Source of the DNA: a virus
IMG/VR virus record: IMGVR_UViG_3300006802_000392
Span: 1 to 28,776 of that record
Length of the DNA stretch: 28,776 nucleotides
Direction: 5' to 3' (one strand)
The position numbers and the translations under genes were made by a program. Under the pieces are notes generated by a model. It worked only from the letters and a program-made list of their open reading frames with translations, was not told the origin of the DNA and searched no databases. This document shows, one piece after another, positions 2,678 to 23,438 of the stretch (positions are counted from its first letter, which is position 1; each line of letters begins with the position of its first letter).

Positions 2678-4513
2678 ATGGCCGACGTAAAAATATCGCA
2701 GCTTCCGCAGGCGTCTTTGCCATTATCCGGCACAGAAGTATTTCCTCTAGTGCAGAATGGCGTGACTGTTCAAGCGCCTGTCGGCGGTAATGATTCGGTG
2801 CTGAATATAACCGCTTTGCGTGCGGTTACGCCCACGGCCGGTCGGAACATTTATGTCGATGGGTATTATGCTGAAGGTGATGGCGGCGGCGGCAATTTCT
2901 ACGGCGTAACCGGCGGCTCTTATACTGATAACGGCGGCACAATTATAACGCCAAATGGAGCAACAGATACAAGCGCTTGGATTAGAAATTCCAGTGACGT
3001 TGTAAATGCAAAATGGTTTGGCGCTGTGGGTGATGGCGTCACAAACGATACAACAGCAATACAAAACACGGTTAATTACGCGTGGCTTACCGGAAGAAAG
3101 GTTTATATACCTGCGGGTAATTATCTGGCAAAAATAACTGTCCCGCCCACACCTGGAGAATTTAGAGGAAAGATATTTTCTCTCACCGGAGACGGTGCGG
3201 CATACCCGTTTTTGGGGGACCCCTACATTGGAGGAACAAGAATTGTTTCCCCGGACACAGACCCTGTTCTGACATATAACAACACAATCGTTGGTAACGT
3301 TTCCTCCGGACATATTTATATTGAGGGTATTAGATTCCTTGCTAACAATACGACACAGGCATTGTATTTTCAGTCATTTTCGGACTTTTGCGTAATTGAC
3401 AAGTGTGAAGTTCGGCAAAACGGCGCTGGTAACGGCATACAATTCGACAGAGCTTATGGCGGGACTATCCAAAATACGCACGTTTTCAATAGCCAAATTG
3501 TTGCGCCTTATGGAACGGTAAGAACCGGAACAGCGATTGTTATGAATACGCTGACCAATTCCGGCGCGTTGCTTACTCTTCGCAAAGTGTCCGCTAGAGG
3601 GTTTAATACGGGCTATCTTGTCGGCGCAGCGACACCTAATAGTATTCTTTCCACCCGTCTTGACCAATGCGAATGCTCTACGATGACGACTGGCATTGTT
3701 GTCAATACGGGCACGTATAAAACGGTTGTCGATAACTGTTTCTTTGAGGGTATTGAAGGAACTTGTGTTGATGATAAAGGCACTGCTACGACTGTTTCTA
3801 ATTGCTTTATGGTAGGAACGTCGACAACGCCGTTTGGCATGGGCATAAATAGTTCGTATGCTACTCACGGGAATGTCTATTACGCAAATATGATGTTCTT
3901 GTCCCATTCTAATACTACAGGCATAGATTTATACACGGATGGCGACGCTCTGGGCCGTCGAAAAGTTGTCAGAGACAATTATATCTATAACAGCTCTGCG
4001 GCTGGATCTACGAATATAGTTGGCCTAAAACTTACTGGCTTGAACCCGACGCTGGCCGTCGAGGGTAACGATTTTAGGCCGATTAGAGCTTGGACTTCCG
4101 GCTCTGGGACTATAAAAATTGACGATCAATCGACCGGAACCATACGCGGAACGATACCGATTACTGATACGCTGAATGAATTTCAGTTGTACTCAAATGC
4201 CAGTATTTCGCTCGGAACTTCTGGAACTTTGACGCAGACTGCCGTAACAGGCGGCTCACTGGAAATGGGCGCAGGTTCATACGCCGATTTTATCCCGTCT
4301 ATTGCGACAAATGTTTCATCGCTATCAATGACAGGGGCAAAATACGGAAGACTTGTGATTCTGTATGTTGGGCCGTTAGGAACAATTCAAGATTCTCCGT
4401 TTATGATATTAGCCGGAAGTGTTAATTTTACCGGGGCGGGAATTTTAACCTTATACACTAGGATAATCGGCGGAACCGTTTATGCCTACGAACTATCAAG
4501 ATCTAACCTATAA
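2678..4513 (+). CDS. tailspike / receptor-binding protein with pectate-lyase-like beta-helix
   Basis: The 611-residue protein begins with a short anchor-like motif (VKISQLPQASLPLSGTEVFP) shared with the fibre protein at 10800. From about residue 107 it has NAKWFGAVGDGVTNDTTAIQ, the hallmark entry motif of the pectate-lyase_3 / tailspike beta-helix. Then follow roughly 300 residues of short Asn, Gly, Thr and Ile-rich beta repeats (for example GTIQNTHVF and VVDNCFFEG). The C-terminal 130 residues look like a trimerising or carbohydrate-binding beta domain. Such spikes bind, and often cleave, surface polysaccharide. Its place between portal and scaffold is unusual for a P22-like phage, and the DNA is clearly more AT-rich than the neighbouring portal and coat genes, suggesting exchange as a cassette. 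No catalytic residues can be assigned by eye. Confidence 0.88.
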   Translation: MADVKISQLPQASLPLSGTEVFPLVQNGVTVQAPVGGNDSVLNITALRAVTPTAGRNIYVDGYYAEGDGGGGNFYGVTGGSYTDNGGTIITPNGATDTSAWIRNSSDVVNAKWFGAVGDGVTNDTTAIQNTVNYAWLTGRKVYIPAGNYLAKITVPPTPGEFRGKIFSLTGDGAAYPFLGDPYIGGTRIVSPDTDPVLTYNNTIVGNVSSGHIYIEGIRFLANNTTQALYFQSFSDFCVIDKCEVRQNGAGNGIQFDRAYGGTIQNTHVFNSQIVAPYGTVRTGTAIVMNTLTNSGALLTLRKVSARGFNTGYLVGAATPNSILSTRLDQCECSTMTTGIVVNTGTYKTVVDNCFFEGIEGTCVDDKGTATTVSNCFMVGTSTTPFGMGINSSYATHGNVYYANMMFLSHSNTTGIDLYTDGDALGRRKVVRDNYIYNSSAAGSTNIVGLKLTGLNPTLAVEGNDFRPIRAWTSGSGTIKIDDQSTGTIRGTIPITDTLNEFQLYSNASISLGTSGTLTQTAVTGGSLEMGAGSYADFIPSIATNVSSLSMTGAKYGRLVILYVGPLGTIQDSPFMILAGSVNFTGAGILTLYTRIIGGTVYAYELSRSNL

Positions 4514-4527
4514 GATGAGAGGGTATC

Positions 4528-4803
4528 ATGGGGTTAAAATCTACGACTGTTTGTCTAGGCTATCAGCAAATCACGTCGCTTAGCGCTGCTACGGGGCTAA
4601 CAGTTCCAGTTGGCGCTACTTCAGCGCTTATTGTAGCCTCATCGCAAGCTATACGCTGGCGTGATGATGGTGTTAATCCTACGGCAAGCGTGGGAATGCC
4701 TGTCACTATCGACACGTATTTTAGCTATGATGGCGACCTAAATCGTATCAGGTTTATCGAACAGCTTTCTGGCGCGGCCCTGAATGTGAGCTACTACGCA
4801 TGA
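4528..4803 (+). CDS. small phage protein of tailspike cassette (91 aa)
   Basis: The 91-residue product is predominantly beta with few charges. It contains VPVGATSALIVASSQAIRWR followed by DDGVNPTASVGMP and ends IRFIEQLSGAALNVSYYA. This pattern recurs in small phage structural proteins of unknown role that are found near tail or fibre genes. It starts 14 nt after the tailspike and overlaps the next gene by 4 nt (ATGA). I infer a virion accessory of the receptor-binding apparatus, for example a small decoration or fibre-associated beta-sandwich. There is no direct functional motif. Confidence 0.72.
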   Translation: MGLKSTTVCLGYQQITSLSAATGLTVPVGATSALIVASSQAIRWRDDGVNPTASVGMPVTIDTYFSYDGDLNRIRFIEQLSGAALNVSYYA

Positions 4804-6452
4804 TCCGTTTTCGTAGCATTCTGAATGGCGATATACGCACTAAATGGCGGCGTGAATCTTTCGACGCTGGCTATGGATCGTTTGTGCCATTCAGTCCGCT
4901 ATTGGCAAATGTTTCACCTGCTATTCAGGCTAATTTTCTGGATTTAACCCCATATACTGCCCCCGTGTGGTTAGATAACAGCGGCACAACGGGCAACCGG
5001 ATGTATTATGACAGCACAGGAGTCCTAACGTGGGCTCCGGCGAATCTCATTCCGACATCCGCAACGCTGACAACGCAGACAATCACAAACGCGATAACCG
5101 CTGGCGGTGATTACATGCTGTCGGCAGAAGTAGCTGCCGGCGCAAGTGTAGCTGTAACAGGCGGCGCTACAGCCACATTAAATACCTCTAGTAGTTCGGT
5201 AGGTTCGCGGTATTATGTCAAGCTATCGGCTTTGTCGACGGGCTCGTTGACGTTGACAGTTACTGGAGCCGTCACTAATGCGCAATTAGAGCGTATCACA
5301 TACCAGACAACGCCTAGAACGCTAATAGCGACTACAGGAGCGCAAAAATTTCTCCCTAGATTTGACAGTTATTATGATACAACCGATAGCACTTGGAAAG
5401 CTAAAGGGCTATTGATAGAAGAAAGTCGTCAGAACCTTGCGACATATAGTGAGCAATTAAATAACTCAAACTGGACGCTTGGTTTTTCTGGCCTACTTGC
5501 TTTTGGAAGCGGCTCTATCGCCAATGACACTGTTGCTCCAGACGGAACGACAACAGCGGATAAAATTGTCGAGAACACTGCCGCTTCGGCGCAGCATAGA
5601 TTTTTCAATAATTCCGCGTTTACCGTAACTAACGGCGCAAGCGTAGCGTATTCAATATTTGTGAAAGCAGCAGGTAGAACATCGGTAAGGCTTACAGACA
5701 ACGCTTTGCAAGGGGCAACATTTGACTTAACGACAGGCGCGGTAAGTCTTGTGAGCGTTGGTGTTACTGCAACAGCAGTTCCCGCCGGAAACAATTGGTG
5801 GCGTATTGGAATTACCAAAACATCAGGGTCTGCGTCAGGGCGTATTGCTATCTATTTTGTTAAGGATGGGGCGACGACTTATACGGGCGACGGTGTGTCG
5901 GGCATTTATGCTTGGGGCGCGCAAGTTGAGAATAGTTCTCCTTCTGTGTCTAGCTATATTTCAACAGTAGCCGCTTCCGTGACTCGCTCTGCCGACATTA
6001 TAAGTCTTTCGGGCGCTGCCTTGACTGCGGCCGGCGCGGCTACAGGATCTGCTATTGTGCAAACGTCTGCGTGGTTAGACGCCAGCATTGTAAGAGATCT
6101 GTTATCCACATCTACAAGTCGTCGGTTGCTATATTCAAACAGCAGCAATACCGCGATTTCGACGACTAACGGAACGACTGCGCTTTCGGCAACGCTCGGT
6201 AGCGCCGGGACATTCACTGGGGGCTCGGCAAGAACTGGTATCGCGTGGGGGGCTTTGGGCCGGTCTATTGTTGGCAATAATGGCGTTTTGATTGCGGACG
6301 CTGTCGTATTAGGCTCTGGAGCCACCGTAAATCTTGGCGGCTATGCGTCCACCACTACTTTTGTGGGGTGGGTAGCATCTATGGCGCTATATGACCAAAA
6401 ACTTCCTAATGTCCTTCTAAAACAAAAGTCATCAGTAGGGGCGACATATTAA
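4800..6452 (+). CDS. fibre or head-spike protein with carbohydrate-binding-like domains (550 aa)
   Basis: Three beta-rich blocks are visible. Residues about 82-170 form a CBM-like sandwich ending GAVTNAQLER. Residues about 202-395 carry KGLLIEESRQNLATYSEQL followed by NNSNWT and then a second CBM-like domain (DGTTTADKIVENTAAS through WGAQVENSS). Residues about 400-550 resemble a laminin-G / concanavalin-like module. The phrase 'Q-N-L-A-T-Y-S-E-Q-x-N-x-x-x-W' is common in phage spike and fibre proteins that display carbohydrate-binding modules on the virion. The gene overlaps both neighbours by 1-4 nt and belongs to the AT-richer cassette. The role is inferred as adsorption to surface glycans. 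Confidence 0.75.
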   Translation: MIRFRSILNGDIRTKWRRESFDAGYGSFVPFSPLLANVSPAIQANFLDLTPYTAPVWLDNSGTTGNRMYYDSTGVLTWAPANLIPTSATLTTQTITNAITAGGDYMLSAEVAAGASVAVTGGATATLNTSSSSVGSRYYVKLSALSTGSLTLTVTGAVTNAQLERITYQTTPRTLIATTGAQKFLPRFDSYYDTTDSTWKAKGLLIEESRQNLATYSEQLNNSNWTLGFSGLLAFGSGSIANDTVAPDGTTTADKIVENTAASAQHRFFNNSAFTVTNGASVAYSIFVKAAGRTSVRLTDNALQGATFDLTTGAVSLVSVGVTATAVPAGNNWWRIGITKTSGSASGRIAIYFVKDGATTYTGDGVSGIYAWGAQVENSSPSVSSYISTVAASVTRSADIISLSGAALTAAGAATGSAIVQTSAWLDASIVRDLLSTSTSRRLLYSNSSNTAISTTNGTTALSATLGSAGTFTGGSARTGIAWGALGRSIVGNNGVLIADAVVLGSGATVNLGGYASTTTFVGWVASMALYDQKLPNVLLKQKSSVGATY

Positions 6453-15967: not shown

Positions 15968-16645
15968 ATGGGGTGGGGTAAGGCCGCAGAGGCGCAAAAT
16001 CAAGCCACGCAAATGTCAATGCTTATGCAGGCTCAACAGGCCGCACAGGCGCAGCAGGCGCTTGAACGTGGACAGCAGCAAGCGACCGCCGCTTATCAGC
16101 CTTATCAACAGTTCGGCACAGAGGCGACCAATCAGTTGGCGATTTTGATGGGCCTGCGCCCCGGCGCTGGCTCTGGCTCGCTTATGCAGCAGCCCACGGC
16201 GGCGCAGCTTGAAATGGACCCTGGCTATGCCTTCCGTGAACAGCAGGGAATGCAGGCTGTTAACCGTTCGGCGGCGGCTCAAGCGGGGCTTCAGTCCGGA
16301 GCGGCGCTTAAAGCAGCGCAACGGTTTGGCCAAGACCTTGCCAGCCAAGAATACGGCAACGCATACAATCGCTTTATGGCTAATCGCGCCAATCAAATCG
16401 GACTGCTCCAGGGCGGCCAACAGACTGGCTTTAACGCGGCGCAAGGGACCGGCAACGCGGCGCTTGGCACCGCTACAAACTTGGCGCAGAACTATCAGAA
16501 TCTTGGCCAAGGTTTAGGTCAGGGCTACGCCAATATTGGCGCGGCTAACGCCAGCGCTTACATGGCCCCGACCAATCTTTTAGCGCAGGTGCTTGGCCAA
16601 GGCATTCAAGCGGCCGGTTATGCTTACGGACGGAGGCCGCAATAA
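15968..16645 (+). CDS. DNA ejection (internal virion) protein, Ala/Gln/Gly-rich (225 aa)
   Basis: The 225-residue protein starts with a Gln and Ala-rich helix (AQQAAQAQQALERGQQQATA) and contains the block MDPGYAFREQQGMQAVNRSA, followed by GAALKAAQRFGQDLASQEYG and NAYNRFMANRANQIGLLQGG. This block is a hallmark of podoviral DNA transfer proteins in the region corresponding to P22 gp7. Such proteins are packed in the head, leave with the DNA and help form a channel through the cell envelope. It is the first of three consecutive ejection-type genes. It overlaps the next gene by one base. Confidence 0.82.
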   Translation: MGWGKAAEAQNQATQMSMLMQAQQAAQAQQALERGQQQATAAYQPYQQFGTEATNQLAILMGLRPGAGSGSLMQQPTAAQLEMDPGYAFREQQGMQAVNRSAAAQAGLQSGAALKAAQRFGQDLASQEYGNAYNRFMANRANQIGLLQGGQQTGFNAAQGTGNAALGTATNLAQNYQNLGQGLGQGYANIGAANASAYMAPTNLLAQVLGQGIQAAGYAYGRRPQ

Positions 16646-18390
16646 TGGCCGTTCAATATACACCTATTCCTGAATTGCAGGTTCCTAACGTCAATTTTCT
16701 TGGCGCTATGGCGCAAGGCGAAGCCGCACGGCTGGCAGAGTTACAGGCCGCTAAAACCGCGCAGGCTATGGAATTACAAGGACGCGCAGCGCAGCGTCAA
16801 GAAGAAGAATCGGCGCTGAATGCCAAAGTTAAGCTACAAGAGCTTAACGATAAGATCCGCGCGCATGCTGTCTCGCGCTTAAGCGCCGTGCCAGAAGGCG
16901 ATCAGGAAGCCTATCTTAAGACGATTGGTGAATTTAAGGACATCTTTCCGGCCGAATACGAAGTGTTGTCTAAGCGCAAATGGGACGCGGACACGCGCCG
17001 CATGGTATTGTTAACGCCCGAACAGCAGTATAAACAAGAGACTAAAGACGTGCTGTTGCCGTCCGGTGAGACGCAAACTTACGGCTATAATCCCTATCTC
17101 GGCGGCGCTCCGGCTAAACCGATTGGCGGCCTTGTTGGCGCGGCGCAGTACGAGCCGGTTGAGGATAAGAATAAAAACATAATTGGCTACCGCGTTAAAG
17201 GAACTACACAGGTCATATCGCCGGAAGCGGCTGCGCCGGCATCAGATATGACAACGTCGCTTATTAAAGAACGCGAAGGCTACATTGAAAAGCCTAAGTA
17301 TGACGTGAATGCTTATCGCGCCGGCTATGGCAGCGACACGGTTACCCGCGCGGATGGCTCGATTGAACGCATCAAGCCCGGCATGTCGGTCAGTCGTGAA
17401 GACGCGGAGCGCGATCTCCAGCGCCGTATTCAGACTGAGTTTGTGCCGAAAGCGGCGGCTAAAGTCGGCGAAGAAAACTGGTCGCGCCTGCCGGAAAACG
17501 TGCGGGCGTCGCTTACGTCTATCGCTTACAACTACGGCACAATCCCCAGCCGCATCGTTCCGGCTGTGCAGTCCGGCAATCCTGAAACGATTGCGCGCGC
17601 GATTGAAAGTCTCGCTGGCGACAACAAAGGCGTCAACGCTGGGCGTCGTATGCAGGAAGCAAATATTGCGCGTGGCACGGCGTTCCCCGGCACTCGCGCT
17701 GTCCCGGCCTTCGCCGCTATGGGCTCGCCTGAATTTATGGGCGGCCCGCAAATTCAGCCGCCGATCAACATGATGGCCCCTGCGCCTGCGCCGGTTAATG
17801 CTATGGCTGCACCAATAGCCGCGCCTGCGCCCATCCCTGCACCTGCGCCGATGCCGCCGGTTCCATCTATGGAGATCAAGCCTAAGCGCACGTTTGCGAT
17901 TGGCACTGAAAAAGCTGCGCAGCAAAAGGCGGCGTTGGAAACTCTTCAGGATCTAGAAATTGATCCGGCGACCGGCGATGACCGCGTGGCGAAACTGATC
18001 CGCAAATCCACAAGCGGCGGTCTTGAGACAGGATTGGCTAAGACGGCGGAATATCTGACCGGCGAAGCTACGCCGGGTATGGTAGCCATAGCTGATCTTA
18101 AAGGCATTATTAACGACGCCGTTCTGTCTAGGCTTGGCGGCAATCTGGGTGCGCAAATATCTGACGATGATGTTAAATTCATCGAAAAAGCTATGGGCGA
18201 CATTGCCAATCCTGAGATTGGGTCAAACGCCCGATTGAGCGCGTGGAAAGAAGTTAAGCGCCGGTTGGCCAGATACGCGGATGTTGATCTGCCCGCGCCG
18301 CCCTCGCGCGGTAAAGCCGGTGAGATGAACGCACCTGCCGAAAAGCCGACAGAACGTAAACGCATCAAATTCATGGACTTGGGTGACTGA
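16645..18390 (+). CDS. internal virion / ejection protein with embedded T4-type lysozyme domain (581 aa)
   Basis: The N-terminal 200 residues are helical and Gln, Ala and Lys-rich. At about 204-345 lies a T4-lysozyme-type (GH24-like) domain. It contains LIKEREGYIEKPKYDVNAYR, then AGYGSDT, SREDAERDLQRRI, and LPENVRASLTSIAYNYGTIP. Glu211 and Asp220 have the same 9-residue spacing as catalytic Glu11 and Asp20 of T4 lysozyme. The usual Thr (Thr26) position appears to be Ala226. A Pro and Ala-rich linker (about 376-408) leads to a C-terminal helical domain (about 410-550, with QISDDDVKFIEKAMGDIANP). I infer that it is ejected with the DNA and locally opens peptidoglycan during infection. Confidence 0.82.
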   Translation: MAVQYTPIPELQVPNVNFLGAMAQGEAARLAELQAAKTAQAMELQGRAAQRQEEESALNAKVKLQELNDKIRAHAVSRLSAVPEGDQEAYLKTIGEFKDIFPAEYEVLSKRKWDADTRRMVLLTPEQQYKQETKDVLLPSGETQTYGYNPYLGGAPAKPIGGLVGAAQYEPVEDKNKNIIGYRVKGTTQVISPEAAAPASDMTTSLIKEREGYIEKPKYDVNAYRAGYGSDTVTRADGSIERIKPGMSVSREDAERDLQRRIQTEFVPKAAAKVGEENWSRLPENVRASLTSIAYNYGTIPSRIVPAVQSGNPETIARAIESLAGDNKGVNAGRRMQEANIARGTAFPGTRAVPAFAAMGSPEFMGGPQIQPPINMMAPAPAPVNAMAAPIAAPAPIPAPAPMPPVPSMEIKPKRTFAIGTEKAAQQKAALETLQDLEIDPATGDDRVAKLIRKSTSGGLETGLAKTAEYLTGEATPGMVAIADLKGIINDAVLSRLGGNLGAQISDDDVKFIEKAMGDIANPEIGSNARLSAWKEVKRRLARYADVDLPAPPSRGKAGEMNAPAEKPTERKRIKFMDLGD

Positions 18391-20234
18391 TGGACGTTGA
18401 ACTGCCGGACGGCACCGTTATTGAAGGCGTTCCTGAAGGAACGACTAAGGCTCAACTCATGGCCAAGCTGCGTAGCAGCGGGTATGACGTCAGTAAGCTT
18501 GCGCCACCTTCCGATGCAGGGAAATTTCGATTTGCGTCGCCGGAGACGGAACAAACCGGCGTCGAATTTATCGGCGGGTTGGCTAAAGCCGCTGAAGATT
18601 ATTTTGCTAAACGTCCGATGCCCGAATATGTCGAACGCGTCGCCGGGAATATTCCGCAAGACGTTATGGCCATTTCGCAGGGATTCACGCCCGAGGCGTT
18701 GGCGGCTACAGGGCAAGCGTTACGTGAACGCCCGGTCGAAACACTGTCAACTGTTGGCAGCGAAATGCTTCGCGGCGCAGGTAGGTTTGTTCGTGACCCG
18801 GCAGGCACTTTTGCCGAAGCGCCCATATCTACGCTGATGGGGCTTCAGGGCGCGCAGCTTCTTCGCGCGCCTAGCCGTTTTGCCGTCAATACTCTGGCCG
18901 AAGTTGCTGCGCCGCCAGTGCGCCGCGCGTTGTCGCCAGCCAATCGCATGATTTCTGACGTGTTTGGCGCGCCTGAAATCCAGCCTGCGCTTCAGGCTGC
19001 GCCCCCTGGCACGTCGGTTTCGCAGGCTCTGGCGGATCTTAACGCGCCGCGCGCTCAAGCCGTCGCCAGACAGGCGGCGGAGATTGTGCCGGAGGCGACC
19101 TACGGAGCGCGTCAGGCACAGGAAGCCTCGCGTGCGCAGCGCATGGCGCAGGTGGCCGGCACGCCGGAAGAATTGGCAGTTCTTGAAGAAGCGCGGTCGG
19201 CAGAAGCGGCAGCTAACTATGGCCGCGCTTTCGCGCAAATAATGCCGGAGACACCAGAGCTTACGTCTTTAATGGGTAAGCCATCTATTAAACGCGCGTT
19301 TAGCCGTGCGGCGCAGATTGCCAGCGAACGGGGGCGTCCGTTTAAGATCGGCGAAACAACCCCCGAAACCGTCACGCCATCTACAATATTGGATGAATTT
19401 GGCCGTCCAGTCCAAAAAGTAACGCCGGCTCAGACCGCTGAATTTCCAGTGGAAAGCCTTCATTATGTGAAGATGGCGTTGGATGATATGATTCGCGATC
19501 CAGAAACTTTTGGTATCGGCGCAACCGAAGTTTCCGCTATTAGAAACACACGGCGCAAGTTCATTTCACAGCTTGAAAAGAACGAAGCCTACGCAACGGC
19601 GCGTCAAAACTACGCCGAACAAAGCGCGCCAATCAACCGTATGCAAGTGGCCCAGCAACTCCAGAAAGCGCTTATTGCGCCGTTGACCGGCGAAGCTACG
19701 CGGGCTGGCGTATTCGCAACGGCGGCCGAAGAAGCGCCGCGCACCATACGAAAAGCCACGGGCCAGCAATTCTTCAATAAACTTGAAGATGTGCTTGATT
19801 CCGAAGATATGCAGGTTGTCAACGACATCCGTGATGAGTTCCGCCGTACCAAACTGGCTGACGAACAGGCTAAACTTGGCCGCGCCGCCGCGCCAGAGGT
19901 TGACGAATTGGCGTCCGCCAAGATTGCATCGGCTATGAATATTCCGTTCCTTAACCGGGCGTGGACGATTGCCAACACGATTGTTAAACGGTCGCTTGGT
20001 AAGATTGACGAAAAGCTCGCGACTGAGATCGGCATGATGATGCAAGATCCGGCCGAACTTAGCAAAGCCATAACTAAAGCTAAAGAGTATGAGGCCAAGA
20101 CGGCCGGCATAGTCGAAAAAGCAAGAGCCCGTCGCCAAGGTGTTGTCAAAGCCGCGCCGCGTCAGGCCATAGCTGGATCGGTCAGCTTTCAGAATGTCAT
20201 GGCCCCCGAAAACCGCAACGCGATGGCGAGATGA
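18390..20234 (+). CDS. internal virion / ejection protein (614 aa)
   Basis: The 614-residue protein begins DVELPDGTVIEGVPEGTTKA, then QLMAKLRSSGYD, the short 'polypeptide-DGT...G-T-x-A-x-x...K' motif common at the start of phage internal virion proteins. The rest is mainly long amphipathic helices rich in Ala, Glu, Arg and Gln, with no enzymatic motif. This is typical of large ejected core proteins (compare P22 gp16 and gp20 by position, not by visible identity). It is the third and last of the ejection block and immediately precedes lysis genes, to which it is linked by an ATGA overlap. Confidence 0.72.
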   Translation: MDVELPDGTVIEGVPEGTTKAQLMAKLRSSGYDVSKLAPPSDAGKFRFASPETEQTGVEFIGGLAKAAEDYFAKRPMPEYVERVAGNIPQDVMAISQGFTPEALAATGQALRERPVETLSTVGSEMLRGAGRFVRDPAGTFAEAPISTLMGLQGAQLLRAPSRFAVNTLAEVAAPPVRRALSPANRMISDVFGAPEIQPALQAAPPGTSVSQALADLNAPRAQAVARQAAEIVPEATYGARQAQEASRAQRMAQVAGTPEELAVLEEARSAEAAANYGRAFAQIMPETPELTSLMGKPSIKRAFSRAAQIASERGRPFKIGETTPETVTPSTILDEFGRPVQKVTPAQTAEFPVESLHYVKMALDDMIRDPETFGIGATEVSAIRNTRRKFISQLEKNEAYATARQNYAEQSAPINRMQVAQQLQKALIAPLTGEATRAGVFATAAEEAPRTIRKATGQQFFNKLEDVLDSEDMQVVNDIRDEFRRTKLADEQAKLGRAAAPEVDELASAKIASAMNIPFLNRAWTIANTIVKRSLGKIDEKLATEIGMMMQDPAELSKAITKAKEYEAKTAGIVEKARARRQGVVKAAPRQAIAGSVSFQNVMAPENRNAMAR

Positions 20235-20485
20235 TTATGGTCGAGTATCAAGTTCTCTTTGACGTGGCCATCGGCGTGATCGGTGTGTTGGGTGGCTGGA
20301 CGCTCAACACGGTCTGGGCGGCTGTAAAGGGTCTTCAGGAAGCCGATAAGGAGTTGGCCGAAAAGGTCGGGCAGATTGAGGTGCTAGTCGCCGGGCGCTA
20401 TGTGACCCGCGACGAGTTTAATCAGGTGCTGAATCAAGTTTTTGAAAGACTAGACCGCATCCGTGACTTGGTGAGCCGCCAATGA
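20231..20485 (+). CDS. small membrane protein of lysis cassette, possible holin/XhlA-like (84 aa)
   Basis: One hydrophobic segment (about residues 8-31, VLFDVAIGVIGVLGGWTLNT) is followed by a charged coiled coil (KGLQEADKELAEKVGQIEVL) and ends VLNQVFERLDRIRDLVSRQ. One TM plus a coiled-coil region resembles XhlA-type lysis accessory proteins and other phage proteins encoded just before endolysins. Here the coiled coil would be on the other side of the membrane from a short N-terminus. The start could be ATG 20231 or ATG 20237. It overlaps the endolysin start by 4 nt. Whether it makes the lethal hole is untested. Confidence 0.68.
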   Translation: MIMVEYQVLFDVAIGVIGVLGGWTLNTVWAAVKGLQEADKELAEKVGQIEVLVAGRYVTRDEFNQVLNQVFERLDRIRDLVSRQ

Positions 20486-20988
20486 AAGAGAACTACGACG
20501 CCTGCCTGAAGCAGACGCTGCGCTATGAAGGCGGCAAGGTCGACAACCCAAAAGATCCTGGCGGCCGGACTGCTTACGGTGTCACGCAAAATACCTACAA
20601 CGCGTGGAGAGCCAAGCACGGGCTTAGCCAGAAAGATGTGTTTCAGATTGCAGACTCAGAAGTCGCGGCGATCTATCGGCAGGAATACTGGGACAAGATC
20701 CGTGGCGACGATTTGCCGGACGGGCTGGACTTTGCTGTGTTCGATTTCGCCGTCAACAGCGGCGTCAGCCGCGCGTCTAAATACCTTCAGTCTATGGTCG
20801 GCGTCACGCAGGACGGCCAGATTGGCCCGAAGACAATCGCCGCCGCCAAAGCCTATCTTGGCGTCAGATTGACAGACATGCGACTAGGCTTCTTAAAAGG
20901 ACTACCGACATGGGCTACTTTTGGGCGTGGCTGGGCCAATCGGATAAACGACGTTTATGCTGTTGTGCGGGACTTATGCTCGCGCTGA
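20482..20988 (+). CDS. endolysin, GH108-type muramidase
   Basis: The 168-residue protein has LRYEGGKVDNPKDPGGRTAY, then GVTQNTYNAW at its N-terminus, the glycosyl hydrolase 108 signature with catalytic Glu16 in the EGG motif. It continues with IYRQEYWDKIRGDDLPDGLD, then FAVFDFAVNSGVSRASKYLQ, and a C-terminal peptidoglycan-binding_3-like region (VGVTQDGQIGPKTIAAAKAY). It cleaves the peptidoglycan sugar backbone to release progeny. No signal peptide or SAR-type N-terminal anchor is present, so a holin is needed for export. The last 79 nt of the gene also encode the start of a lipoprotein in another frame. Confidence 0.92.
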   Translation: MKENYDACLKQTLRYEGGKVDNPKDPGGRTAYGVTQNTYNAWRAKHGLSQKDVFQIADSEVAAIYRQEYWDKIRGDDLPDGLDFAVFDFAVNSGVSRASKYLQSMVGVTQDGQIGPKTIAAAKAYLGVRLTDMRLGFLKGLPTWATFGRGWANRINDVYAVVRDLCSR

Positions 20989-21056
20989 CAGGCTGCGCTG
21001 ATCTGAAGTATTACGAGTGCGTCGCGCGCGACCGCACGTCAAACCCGTGCAATTAG
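20910..21056 (+). CDS. small lipoprotein overlapping the endolysin gene (48 aa)
   Basis: ATG at 20910 opens a 48-residue frame inside the 3' end of the endolysin gene, ending TAG 21054-21056. An AAGGA ribosome site lies 8 nt upstream (20897-20901). The product has a short basic region (SDKRR), a hydrophobic stretch (LCCCAGLMLALTG) and a lipobox LTGC with the lipidated Cys at 29. The mature part would be only 20 residues (ADLKYYECVARDRTSNPCN after Cys29), with two further cysteines. The overlap with a lysis gene recalls Rz1-type outer spanins, although Pro-richness is lacking. Another start could be ATG 20976, which would leave only 26 residues. I infer an outer-membrane lipoprotein acting in lysis. 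Confidence 0.68.
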   Translation: MGYFWAWLGQSDKRRLCCCAGLMLALTGCADLKYYECVARDRTSNPCN

Positions 21057-21065
21057 GTAGTGGCC

Positions 21066-21287
21066 ATGTCCGCGGATCAAAGCCTGTTAAGCGCCTATAG
21101 ATCAAACCCATTAGTAACGGGTTTATTCATCCTAAATATATTGTCTATATTAGGGGCCGGTTATTTCTTAAATGAAAGCGACCGTCGAAATATAGACTAT
21201 CTCCGCGAGAGAGATAAAGACGTTCAGAAATTCAGAACGACTGTTTTAGAAGTAGTTAGCCATTGTGTTGTCCCAAAGGAGAGGTAA
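21066..21287 (+). CDS. small single-TM membrane protein of lysis cassette (73 aa)
   Basis: One strong hydrophobic segment (about residues 17-35, LVTGLFILNILSILGAGYFL) is followed by a charged helix (SDRRNIDYLRERDKDVQKFR) and ends VVSHCVVPKER. This is the layout of a small inner-membrane protein with a soluble coiled domain. An inner spanin or antiholin role is possible from its place in the cassette. ATG 21066 is preferred because TAGG lies about 8 nt before it; an in-frame GTG at 21060 would add two residues but is only 2 nt from that site. It is followed at once by the next gene, with AAAGGAGAGG as a strong ribosome site. Confidence 0.68.
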   Translation: MSADQSLLSAYRSNPLVTGLFILNILSILGAGYFLNESDRRNIDYLRERDKDVQKFRTTVLEVVSHCVVPKER

Positions 21288-21464
21288 ATGATTACGAATT
21301 GGATGACCACGATCCCCGGAATCCTGACGCTGCTGTCCGTGTTGTTTCATGCTTGGCAGACGAAAGACGTGAACTGGACGGATCTTCAGAACGCGCTTGT
21401 TGCGCTCGGCCTCGTCGCGGCTAAAGATTGGAACGTGACGGGCGGCTCGCGCGGTGAAGGTTGA
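21288..21464 (+). CDS. small hydrophobic protein, holin candidate (58 aa)
   Basis: ATG at 21288 directly follows the previous stop and gives a 58-residue product ending TGA 21462-21464. It is preceded by a strong AGGAGAGG ribosome site. Two hydrophobic stretches are seen (IPGILTLLSVLFHAW and LQNALVALGLVAA), then a tail KDWNVTGGSRGEG. Small phage lysis-region proteins ending in 'GLxAKDxNVTGG' are familiar from many phages and are commonly thought to be holin-like. The hydrophobic pattern supports membrane association, but the two segments are short, so hole formation is inference. Confidence 0.68.
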   Translation: MITNWMTTIPGILTLLSVLFHAWQTKDVNWTDLQNALVALGLVAAKDWNVTGGSRGEG

Positions 21465-21690
21465 AAGGGTCAGGTTGCGGAACCTAAGACCGTGGAAGAA
21501 ACTGCTGCTGATCTTGATAGCGGTAAGTTCTGAAGGCTGCGCCAGCGGGAGCACTTGTCCCCCGCTGGTCGACTATTCAGCCGAACTCCAAACCAAAGCG
21601 GCTAAAGAATTACGCGCTCTCCCCAACGACAGCGCTGTCGCTCGGCTTGTCGTCGATTACGGTCAGCTTCGTCGAACGTGCCGGCTTTAA
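21454..21690 (+). CDS. spanin-like lipoprotein (78 aa)
   Basis: The product has a basic N-terminus (RVRLRNLRPWKK), a hydrophobic stretch (LLLILIAVSSEGC) and a likely lipid-acceptor Cys at 29, though the Glu before Gly makes the lipobox atypical. The mature part is CASGSTCPPLVDYSAELQTK, then AAKELRALPNDSAVARLVVD, ending QLRRTCRL. Proteins with this 'CPPLVxYxxxxQxxAAxELRALPxxSAxAR' pattern occur in phage lysis cassettes and are believed to act as outer-membrane spanin components. Start is GTG 21454 or, with GAAAGGG about 5 nt upstream, TTG 21475. It overlaps the holin candidate by 11 nt and the convergent DUF6378-like gene by 81 nt. Confidence 0.7.
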   Translation: MKVERVRLRNLRPWKKLLLILIAVSSEGCASGSTCPPLVDYSAELQTKAAKELRALPNDSAVARLVVDYGQLRRTCRL

Positions 21691-21993: not shown

Positions 21994-22180
21994 TTATCAT
22001 CTCCATGATGGCCGCCCTCTCTCTTAACATGCGCAGCACAGTGTAACGTTGATGCAGGCGCACAAGGATAGTCGAGCGCCGGGCGTGACGCTGTTCTTCC
22101 TCCAGTAGGTCTAAGACCTCCTGTTCTGTCAGATCGGCCAGCCGATCATTAAGTTCTTTCCATGTTAGACAGCTCGGCAA
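21968..22180 (-). CDS. small helical phage protein, TTG start (70 aa)
   Basis: The 70-residue, highly charged helical protein (TWKELNDRLADLTEQEVLDL, then LEEEQRHARRSTILVRLHQR and YTVLRMLRERAAIM) occurs between the helicase and the DUF6378-like gene. Similar short proteins with LTEAEVLxLLEEE...RRxSILxRLHQRY are familiar in phage replication regions, without known role. The start is TTG at 22180, supported by GGAG 7 nt upstream; no ATG is available in frame near it. It overlaps the helicase gene by 32 nt and the next gene by 26 nt, so translation is likely coupled. Confidence 0.7.
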   Translation of the reverse strand: MPSCLTWKELNDRLADLTEQEVLDLLEEEQRHARRSTILVRLHQRYTVLRMLRERAAIMEMINEPARTTV

Positions 22181-23438
22181 GGGCCAACTCCGCTAAAGAT
22201 TTCTTGTCGTGTAACGCATCCCATATGCGCTCGTCAATAGTTTTATTACACATGACGACATAACACCAGACCTCTCGCGTCTGGCCGCTGCGATGCAGCC
22301 GGCCCACGGTTTGTTCGAATAGCTCCAGCGACCACGGCAACGATAGAAACACGATCTTGTTGCCGCCAAACTGGAGGTTTAGCCCGTGGCCGGCGCTTTT
22401 GGGATGGATCGCCAAAAGTTCAACCTTGCCGGCGTTCCAGCGCTCGATGGCGTCGGGCGCATCTATTGTAGTAACATTAAATGATCTTTGAAGCTCGGCT
22501 AGTTCTTCTTTGTAATTGTAGACGACGATGGTGTTGTCTCGCTGGTTTTCGTCGAGGATGTCTCGGAGAGATTCAAACTTTTGGCGTCCAAACCACTGAG
22601 CAATGCCTTGGCTATCATAAGCGAAGCCGGAGGTAAGCTGCTGAAGTTTGTTTGTGACAGCAGCCGCTGTTGGAGCCGTGATCTCTTCATGCACATATTC
22701 CTTCTTCATGTTCTCGTATGGCGTGCGGTCGTCAAGATCGCAGCGCATTTCAACGACGTGTAACGGCGGCAGTTTATCCTTATACTCGCCAGGCTCTAGC
22801 ACGTATGTCGCCGGCTTGATCGTCTCCATGACTTTGGGCAGTGCTTGCGGTAGCGGCTCCCACTGGCCATAGTCGCGGTTGACGCAGTAAAAATATTGTT
22901 GAAGAAACGCACCTTTGCTGCGGCCTAGCAGCGTCTGGTCAATGACCTTGCACTGGCCGAACACGTCTTCTAGGCCGTTTGATGTAAACGATCCCGTCAG
23001 ACCCCAGCGGATCTTAAATTGATCAAGTATCTTAAGCAGGAATTTAAATCGTTTACCGGAAGGATTTTTGAGACGTGTCAGCTCGTCGAATACAATGCCA
23101 TCAAAGTCTTTCGGATCTATTGACGGGATGTTGTCATAGTTGGTGACGACTATATTCACGTCAGCAGCGAACGCTTTTTTGCGCTGCGCTGGCGTGCCAA
23201 CAGCGACAGCCATTCTCATGTGTTCGGCCCACTTCGGCCGCTCAACAGGCCACACGTCAGTGCAAACGCGCTTCGGCGCTAACACAAGCCAGCGGTCGCA
23301 ATAACCTTTAGCCGTCATGTCCGCCATCGCCGTCAATGTAATCGCTGTCTTGCCCGCGCCTACTGGCGCAAGTATCATGGCTCGGTCATGGGCGAAGAGG
23401 AAGTCGGCGGCGTCGTGTTGATACGGTCGTAAGTCCAT
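22149..23438 (-). CDS. SNF2-type (superfamily 2) DNA helicase/translocase (429 aa)
   Basis: Superfamily 2 motifs occur in order. LRPYQ (3-7) is the Q/I entry, APVGAGKTA (24-32) is Walker A with Lys30, and IVFDELTRLKN (115-125) is the Walker B equivalent, DEL rather than DEAH. LTGS (147-150) is motif III, HPKSAGHGLNLQ (345-356) is motif V, and QTVGRLHRSGQ (376-386) is motif VI with its arginine fingers. The order and the R-L-H-R-S-G-Q form are those of phage SNF2-like helicases. It likely remodels replication or recombination intermediates together with the VRR-NUC protein encoded just upstream. The start overlaps that gene by 64 nt. Transcription is opposite to the polymerase operon. Confidence 0.92.
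   Translation of the reverse strand: MDLRPYQHDAADFLFAHDRAMILAPVGAGKTAITLTAMADMTAKGYCDRWLVLAPKRVCTDVWPVERPKWAEHMRMAVAVGTPAQRKKAFAADVNIVVTNYDNIPSIDPKDFDGIVFDELTRLKNPSGKRFKFLLKILDQFKIRWGLTGSFTSNGLEDVFGQCKVIDQTLLGRSKGAFLQQYFYCVNRDYGQWEPLPQALPKVMETIKPATYVLEPGEYKDKLPPLHVVEMRCDLDDRTPYENMKKEYVHEEITAPTAAAVTNKLQQLTSGFAYDSQGIAQWFGRQKFESLRDILDENQRDNTIVVYNYKEELAELQRSFNVTTIDAPDAIERWNAGKVELLAIHPKSAGHGLNLQFGGNKIVFLSLPWSLELFEQTVGRLHRSGQTREVWCYVVMCNKTIDERIWDALHDKKSLAELALAELSNMERT

Follow-up and report, generated by a model that had tools for sequence, protein, structure and literature searches.

Small phage lipoproteins decide re-infection and outer-membrane failure, and few of them are understood. The viral DNA analyzed here (IMG/VR record IMGVR_UViG_3300006802_000392; 28,776 nt, called the window below) carries a 48-residue frame that begins inside an endolysin gene and reads like a lipoprotein precursor. 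The question raised by this locus is whether such a short, partly overprinted frame is a gene and, if it is, whether its product works in lysis as had been supposed in the original prediction. The frame and the genes around it are listed in Table 1.

Table 1. Positions in the window of the frame under study, its parts and the genes considered with it
Feature	Position	Strand	Remarks
Tail-fibre candidate	2678-4513		
Second tail protein	4800-6452		
Candidate i-spanin, N-terminal transmembrane (TM) segment plus coil	20231..20485	+	84 residues, no Cys; phrog_462 E 7e-9; spanin role putative
GH108 endolysin, overlapping the mini-lipoprotein gene from upstream	20482..20988	+	Pfam PF05838 Glyco_hydro_108 E 6e-29; phrog_315 endolysin E 2e-49
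AAGGA ribosome-binding site of the mini-lipoprotein	20897..20901	+	8 nt to the ATG; predicted from the sequence and from the same or nearly the same site in close relatives
Mini-lipoprotein gene	20910..21056	+	ATG 20910, 48 codons and stop 21054-21056
Signal peptide, residues 1-28	20910..20993	+	KRR n-region, LTGC lipobox; codons 1-26 overlap the endolysin 3' end
Mature part, CADLKYYECVARDRTSNPCN	20994..21053	+	20 residues
Codons C37 to C47, C-x9-C	21018..21050	+	presumed disulfide loop
Single-TM protein	21066..21287	+	73 residues (75 from GTG 21060), one Cys, variable insertion; no Pfam or PHROG match
Holin-like protein (..AKDWNVTGG)	21288..21464	+	58 residues; putative role, no PHROG or Pfam match
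Second, larger lipoprotein-like frame (..SSEGC ASGSTCPPLVDYSAE..), candidate o-spanin	21454..21690	+	phrog_26778 E 1e-14; phrog_456 Rz-like spanin only E 0.09

A Conserved Lipoprotein Frame Overlapping the Endolysin Gene

The frame, whose product we call the mini-lipoprotein, is translated as MGYFWAWLGQSDKRRLCCCAGLMLALTG-CADLKYYECVARDRTSNPCN (signal peptide and mature part, respectively). Residues K13, R14 and R15 of the n-region stand ahead of a hydrophobic core, the lipobox consists of L26-T27-G28-C29, and two extra cysteines (C37 and C47) follow. The 48-residue length, the AAGGA site, the basic N-region, the hydrophobic core and the LTGC sequence described in the original prediction were all found in place. 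LTGC is a good lipobox, and the predicted protein has the features of a bacterial-type lipoprotein, i.e., of a signal peptidase II substrate. The start inside the endolysin gene, 79 nt before its end, was likewise borne out, with the endolysin stop codon counted. Because this overlap is limited to codons 1-26 and one base of codon 27, the overprinting affects the signal peptide, whereas the mature part is encoded on DNA of its own.

Relatives of the frame are encoded in 73 viral loci; in the close ones, the ATG and the lipobox are retained together with a ribosome site that reads AAGGA or AAGGG. For 30 unique relatives of 144 nt, we calculated dN/dS as uncorrected Nei-Gojobori counts summed over pairs. 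In the non-overlapping part, the ratio was 0.17 in the mini-lipoprotein frame vs. 2.05 and 1.53 in the two other frames, which is strong evidence that the mature part is under purifying selection; in the overlap part, it was 0.85 in the mini-lipoprotein frame and 0.49 in the endolysin frame, which points to the endolysin as the more constrained product there. The original prediction had staked itself on conservation of the frame and lipobox in relatives and stands on this count, because both are conserved. That the frame is no gene but a by-product of endolysin coding and chance is a view to which its shortness and the overlap of its first 26 codons with another gene lend some color; we consider it highly improbable in the face of the low ratio outside the overlap and of the reappearance of this peptide, joined to different signal peptides, downstream of other endolysins and also where no endolysin was found. 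Very probably, then, the frame is a true gene, and it is conserved among many uncultured phages.

Collection and Characteristics of the Family

Family members have varied signal peptides, followed by the lipid Cys, 5-10 residues and the motif E-C-[ILV]-x-R-D-x-T-x-x-P-C-[NQH], the last position of which is usually the final residue of the protein. By combining sources, we collected 81 distinct precursors from uncultured viruses, with 59 distinct mature parts. The collection required a small residue before Cys or Phe at the lipobox; three loci in which no lipobox was seen (L143, L270 and L272), two with no start in range (L175 and L228) and identical copies were left out. Because one contig occurs as copies under several locus ids, counts refer to unique precursors; their starts were chosen by script, and TM prediction and gene calling were done by simple scripts.

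A DNA-level scan for E-C-[hydrophobic]-x-R-D-x-T-x-x-P-C, which demanded neither a lipobox nor a C-terminus, found at least 120 stretches in uncultured virus contigs and 10 in 84,980 cellular genomes. According to the script, the motif stands at the end of a short lipobox-bearing frame in 112 of 114 newly fetched viral loci, among the matches listed, and in none of the 10 cellular stretches. The two viral exceptions are L194, with Phe for the lipid Cys, and L226, an unrelated frame. The Phe in L194 occurs in an otherwise intact protein, and may be a sequencing error or mark an unlipidated form. The E, C, R, D, T, P and C residues and their spacing are fixed by the motif scan, and therefore their invariance among the matches is no evidence of conservation. 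The same limit applies to the C-x9-C spacing of the internal Cys pair, which is found in 59/59 mature parts and is fixed by the collecting pattern. Two characteristics were free to vary: the mature part is 20 residues long in 67 of the 81 precursors, and the last Cys is followed by Asn in 51 of the 59 mature parts, by Gln in 7 and by His in 1. The lipobox Cys is present in 58 of these, and the net charge is 0 in 49. The signal peptides are of several unrelated-looking types, with lengths of 13 to 37 residues assigned by script, and a conserved tail, in a mature part mostly of one length, behind such different signal peptides suggests specific recognition rather than a spacer. In L188, the mini-lipoprotein forms the end of an 85-residue frame with an extra N-terminal hydrophobic segment, which means that two membrane segments may precede the lipid Cys; similar sequences are present in L263, L175, L228 and L391.

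Members of the family are short enough to be overlooked, and no convincing one turned up in the phage records and profile libraries searched, although unrelated cassettes share the conserved tail. A tblastn search with four family queries against 50,697 phage records, from which entries very near the window were possibly left out, gave nothing or only matches with E of 4 and above; those to Medea1, ort11 and a Bacillus phage were counted as chance because of their E-values. The window protein had no match in PHROG or Pfam; weak profile matches of other members (best E 0.0037) covered, in the five members inspected, the signal peptide and at most about 15 further residues. A search of titles and abstract beginnings in the literature found no description of the family motif or of a lipoprotein overlapping an endolysin gene. 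AlphaFold2 with a 37-row alignment gave one long helix with a mean pLDDT of 66 and a pTM of 0.26, and this model was set aside.

Gene Neighborhoods and a Possible Role in Lysis

An endolysin match lies within 900 nt upstream in 56 of the 81 precursors and belongs to one of four unrelated types: GH108 (29), M15/VanY (19), amidase (1) and a type whose example matches phrog_181 endolysins and which we take to be GH19-like (7). The start overlaps the endolysin gene by 79, 4 or 1 nt in 43 of 50 cases, corresponding to the three main endolysin clusters. On the other side, the mini-lipoprotein is often followed at 9-12 nt by the start of a holin-like gene, and more than one holin-like type follows the family. 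In 21 precursors there was no endolysin match upstream, and none was found in a further four with less than 450 nt of upstream sequence. Two of these endolysin-free loci lie among DNA-replication genes: the gene stands on the same strand with genes for PhoH, DNA ligase, a helicase loader and an ssDNA-binding protein in L201 and with helicase, exonuclease and Holliday junction resolvase genes in L221. It lies downstream of an exonuclease gene in L257 and of a 2OG-Fe(II) oxygenase gene in L191, and the two neighbors scanned in L174 belong to families of unknown function. One locus scored as without endolysin, L197, has downstream genes that nevertheless resemble a lysis cassette. Another member, L156, is followed by a frame that resembles an integrase gene, which hints at a temperate carrier.

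The position after four types of endolysins and before more than one type of holin-like gene, together with the recurrent overlaps, would suit an accessory lysis factor. Such a protein would be made together with the endolysin and holin, and would either weaken or permeabilize the outer membrane as colicin lysis lipoproteins do, or tune the holin or spanin step. Its tiny size also fits, as bacteriocin release proteins are tiny lipoproteins made with a lytic or toxin operon. The mini-lipoprotein differs from colicin lysis and bacteriocin release proteins in its conserved Cys loop, its C-terminal residue and its phage setting, and the mature part, mostly with net charge 0, is not cationic. No lysis-lipoprotein family was found among the Pfam matches of 37 members; the colicin lysis family is absent from the 10 Pfam families matched at E up to 1. 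That 21 precursors lack a recognized upstream endolysin also speaks against a lysis factor, though the T4 spanin genes are reported to stand apart from the T4 holin and endolysin genes (PMC6139136), and an endolysin-free context alone therefore does not exclude a lysis role. A function in lysis is possible but somewhat doubtful in our judgment, and is the main rival of the exclusion-type reading presented below.

The Endolysin-Holin Junction as an Exchange Slot

Another set of loci was obtained blind to the motif, with two holin-like proteins as queries, and 106 of these had enough upstream sequence. The family is present between the endolysin and holin in 46 of them (44 recognized by script, and L446 and the variant L115 by eye), membership itself being scored by the motif; 23 hold other tiny lipoproteins, each with two extra Cys, and 37 hold no lipoprotein in this slot. 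The 69 slot lipoproteins (68 by script and L446, which the filter missed) thus comprise 45 with the exact motif, the L115 protein ECIARDRASNPCN with one change from it, and the 23 others. The others are of the CSVEGAGFENSGRLRQKVVCKQVRPNYTECRNVD type (12), CASLYHACKDGLCR (4), CSTVAKCVVLDNTSTPCR (4), CSAPAKYLFECTVTQPSNCN (2) and CQAAKTIIDTCRDGLCR (1). The first type, found in L384, L385, L387-L390, L392, L393, L395, L398, L417 and L424, and its variants have a similar kind of signal peptide and a C-x9-C pair at the end; this commonest type gave no match at E up to 1 in the phage records.

In 24 of the 37 lipoprotein-free loci, the endolysin ends -4 to 10 nt from the holin start; the 37 include seven distant holin relatives (L368-L374) and four loci with a 37-residue TM frame in the slot. 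Because the queries were holins encoded next to the family, these counts are not population frequencies. As judged from this comparison of gene order, with slots that lack any lipoprotein, the mini-lipoprotein gene is accessory rather than a core part of the lysis cassette, and the endolysin-holin junction is an exchange slot. Similar observations come from the GH108 side. In 25 GH108 loci without the family (L056-L080), the filter found a lipoprotein 300-560 nt downstream in 22, and for the other three less than 500 nt of sequence was available. In L056, L060 and L061, the endolysin is followed at 3 nt by a small lipoprotein of a different kind. The holin-like protein matches one phage record, MW202483.1, in which only a lipoprotein of the CPPL type (described below) was found by the filter within 900 nt after the endolysin. 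Absence from many otherwise similar cassettes counts against a lysis factor, and the empty-slot relatives provide a natural with/without comparison.

Spanin Partners and a Second Lipoprotein

The original prediction regarded the mature part as too short for a classical spanin to span the periplasm and suggested that it acts as a disulfide-linked partner. Its 20 residues and two extra cysteines were confirmed, and both C37 and C47 are conserved among relatives, but the argument from length is weak, because it is the combined periplasmic length that counts. The reported range for spanin pairs is 62-300 residues, the shortest pair having 62 (PMC6139136), and the 20 residues of the mini-lipoprotein plus the periplasmic part of the 84-residue TM-coil protein, which we estimate at ~55 residues, would exceed this minimum if that protein is the partner. 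The mini-lipoprotein might be an o-spanin; it would bind a TM-coil protein, for instance the 84-residue one, with disulfides, and fuse or break the membranes. Like the o-spanins Rz1, LysC and PseT.2, it is a lipoprotein in a lysis cassette that overlaps a neighboring gene, and PseT.2 also has two extra Cys (PMC6139136). The window pair of a Cys-free TM-coil protein and a lipoprotein with two extra Cys matches the combination reported as commonest, i.e., zero Cys in the i-spanin and two in the o-spanin (PMC6139136). In tblastn, the 84-residue protein had a match before the endolysin in 26 of the 27 GH108 cassettes whose upstream sequence was long enough, which makes it a fair i-spanin candidate in such cassettes.

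It is not a candidate elsewhere, being found in only 2/19 M15, 0/6 GH19-like and 0/1 amidase cassettes. Other TM-coil proteins occur instead: that of L260 matches the phrog_1026 Rz-like spanin (E 2e-5) and has a relative in 6 of 18 M15 cassettes, and that of L198, a type present in several cassettes, has no spanin match and only phrog_22206 at E 0.007. When the 53 cassettes were compared, the same i-spanin partner was not kept across members, which makes o-spanin identity unlikely. The single-TM protein encoded next to the mini-lipoprotein was also considered as a disulfide partner and rejected, as its tblastn matches among the 53 cassettes were confined to the window and L120. In the 21 endolysin-free precursors, a loose script found no frame with an N-terminal membrane segment and a tail within 1 kb in 9 and some such frame in 12, and a stricter script left 12 of 21 without any candidate membrane partner. 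Most of the 12 candidate frames resemble cleavable signal peptides; L181 and L197 carry a TM-coil-like frame. In L181 and L221, a frame of 85 residues whose N-terminus bears a hydrophobic segment stops 17-18 nt short of the mini-lipoprotein and may encode a secreted or membrane partner, which would suit an o-spanin.

Most cassettes already have another lipoprotein-like frame whose product may fill this role. Of the unique precursors in a lysis context, 53 have 900 nt or more of downstream sequence. A second lipoprotein-like frame is present in 50 of these, 37 with a CPPL motif and 13 with a PIxWS motif; the frames were counted by these motifs, and a loose lipobox test was passed by 37/37 and 11/13, respectively. 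All 13 PIxWS frames match the phrog_1275 Rz-like spanin. Two CPPL examples match phrog_26778, a family of unknown function, the 37 CPPL frames being assigned to their type by motif. The three cassettes without either motif are L186, L189 and L198, and a looser scan saw CPPL in L186. These second lipoproteins share the cassettes and the extra Cys with the mini-lipoprotein, but are longer, are encoded after the holin-like gene in the cassettes inspected, and have the motifs CPPLVxYSA and PIxWS. The SSEGC lipobox of the window's second frame is unusual; it is also found in L054, and other relatives have FSGC.

A second lipoprotein-like frame in 50/53 cassettes, with Rz-like-spanin types in 13, argues against both an o-spanin and a lysis factor. 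Together with the restriction of the neighboring TM protein to 2/53 cassettes including the window and with the 37/106 slots empty of any lipoprotein, it also leaves the disulfide-linked spanin partner originally proposed without support. The mini-lipoprotein further differs from o-spanins in overlapping the endolysin rather than the i-spanin gene, in being very short and accessory, and in its conserved tail, whereas o-spanins are reported to be highly diverse, with 125 families (PMC6139136). In view of these points, we give the o-spanin explanation a low probability.

Comparison with Exclusion Lipoproteins and a Proposed Function

Small phage lipoproteins with an internal Cys pair are known from superinfection exclusion. 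Llp of T5 and Cor of T1 and phi80 are small exclusion lipoproteins with an intramolecular disulfide, and Llp docks on FhuA from the periplasmic side (PMC9586334); Rtp45, of about 6 kDa, has an intramolecular disulfide Cys30-Cys38 and docks on LptD, also from the periplasmic side (PMC12685063). The mini-lipoprotein resembles them in being a small phage lipoprotein with an internal Cys pair, for which a bond is presumed. Its mature part is shorter, however; Llp has a mature part of 61 residues, of which the usual 20 are about a third. The location also differs: cor lies downstream of tail fibre genes and llp beside pb5, in keeping with exclusion lipoproteins that track the receptor (PMC13164509, PMC9586334), whereas the mini-lipoprotein gene lies beside endolysin or replication genes. 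Profile comparison with Cor (phrog_1119) gave weak matches in 6 of 37 members (best E 0.038), and the match in the one member inspected consists of residues 1-24, i.e., a signal peptide of 15 residues plus nine; Llp and Rtp45 were compared by their descriptions.

On the precedents of Llp-FhuA and Rtp45-LptD, we adopt, tentatively and short of calling it probable, the reading that this accessory mini-lipoprotein uses its C-terminal Cys loop to dock on a conserved envelope protein of the host, much as superinfection-exclusion lipoproteins do. The mini-lipoprotein would probably be translated together with the endolysin; its signal peptide would be cleaved before C29, which, judging by the lipobox, would be lipidated, and C37 and C47 would probably close a nine-residue loop in the oxidizing periplasm. 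The conserved loop and C-terminal residue might then dock on the periplasmic side of one host envelope protein and lock it, in the way that Llp acts on FhuA and Rtp45 on LptD. The most likely benefit would be that re-adsorption or injection is blocked on infected cells and on the debris left after lysis. A conserved tail behind exchangeable signal peptides in varied neighborhoods suggests a conserved host target and not a phage protein that co-evolves with the peptide. The purifying selection that acts on the mature part, the accessory status, the other lipoprotein-like frame in 50/53 cassettes and the presence of the peptide at endolysin-free loci such as L201 are all in favor of the exclusion-type reading; the placement after endolysins in 56/81 precursors counts against it, as this fits a lysis role equally well or better.

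Records of 12 relatives bear on exclusion matched to the receptor. Identity of the major head protein is 93-98% in the 11 records that gave a match, and the mature peptide retains 15-17 of 20 residues in the 12. Only short or N-terminal stretches of the tail-fibre candidate were matched in 8 of the 12 records, and the second tail protein was matched in none of them; the records may be fragments, and both tail proteins are receptor-binding candidates only. Tail modules thus appear to be exchanged while the peptide changes little, unlike exclusion lipoproteins, which track the receptor. This does not fit receptor-matched exclusion, and a shared second receptor or a block of injection would be needed.

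Docking on a host envelope protein could also serve a purpose linked to neither superinfection nor lysis: the mini-lipoprotein might disable an essential, conserved outer-membrane or envelope machine, e.g., LptD, BamA or lipoprotein transport, for host takeover. Conservation of the tail across unrelated endolysins and neighborhoods would suit one such target, and Rtp45 is a small phage lipoprotein that docks on LptD (PMC12685063); the target is here purely conjectural and the gene is accessory, and we regard this explanation as rather unlikely.

A broader view, which we offer as a speculation more doubtful than not, is that a widely shared phage lipopeptide of ~20 mature residues, whose signal peptide is overprinted or exchangeable and whose Cys-loop tail is conserved, inhibits one conserved outer-membrane protein in a minimal form. 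A whole class of Cys-loop mini-lipoproteins would then use the endolysin-holin junction as an exchange slot; about five more tail types were seen there, and each might have a target of its own. If docking on a conserved envelope protein is true, the mini-lipoprotein would be among the smallest natural binders of such a target and would be easy to make.

Two other genes of the window deserve mention. A 581-residue protein encoded upstream of the lysis genes (16645-18390) has an internal endolysin-like domain (phrog_3572 E 7e-25) and is perhaps a virion-borne cell-wall enzyme. After the plus-strand lysis block, a DNA helicase gene (phrog_62) is located on the minus strand at 22149-23438.
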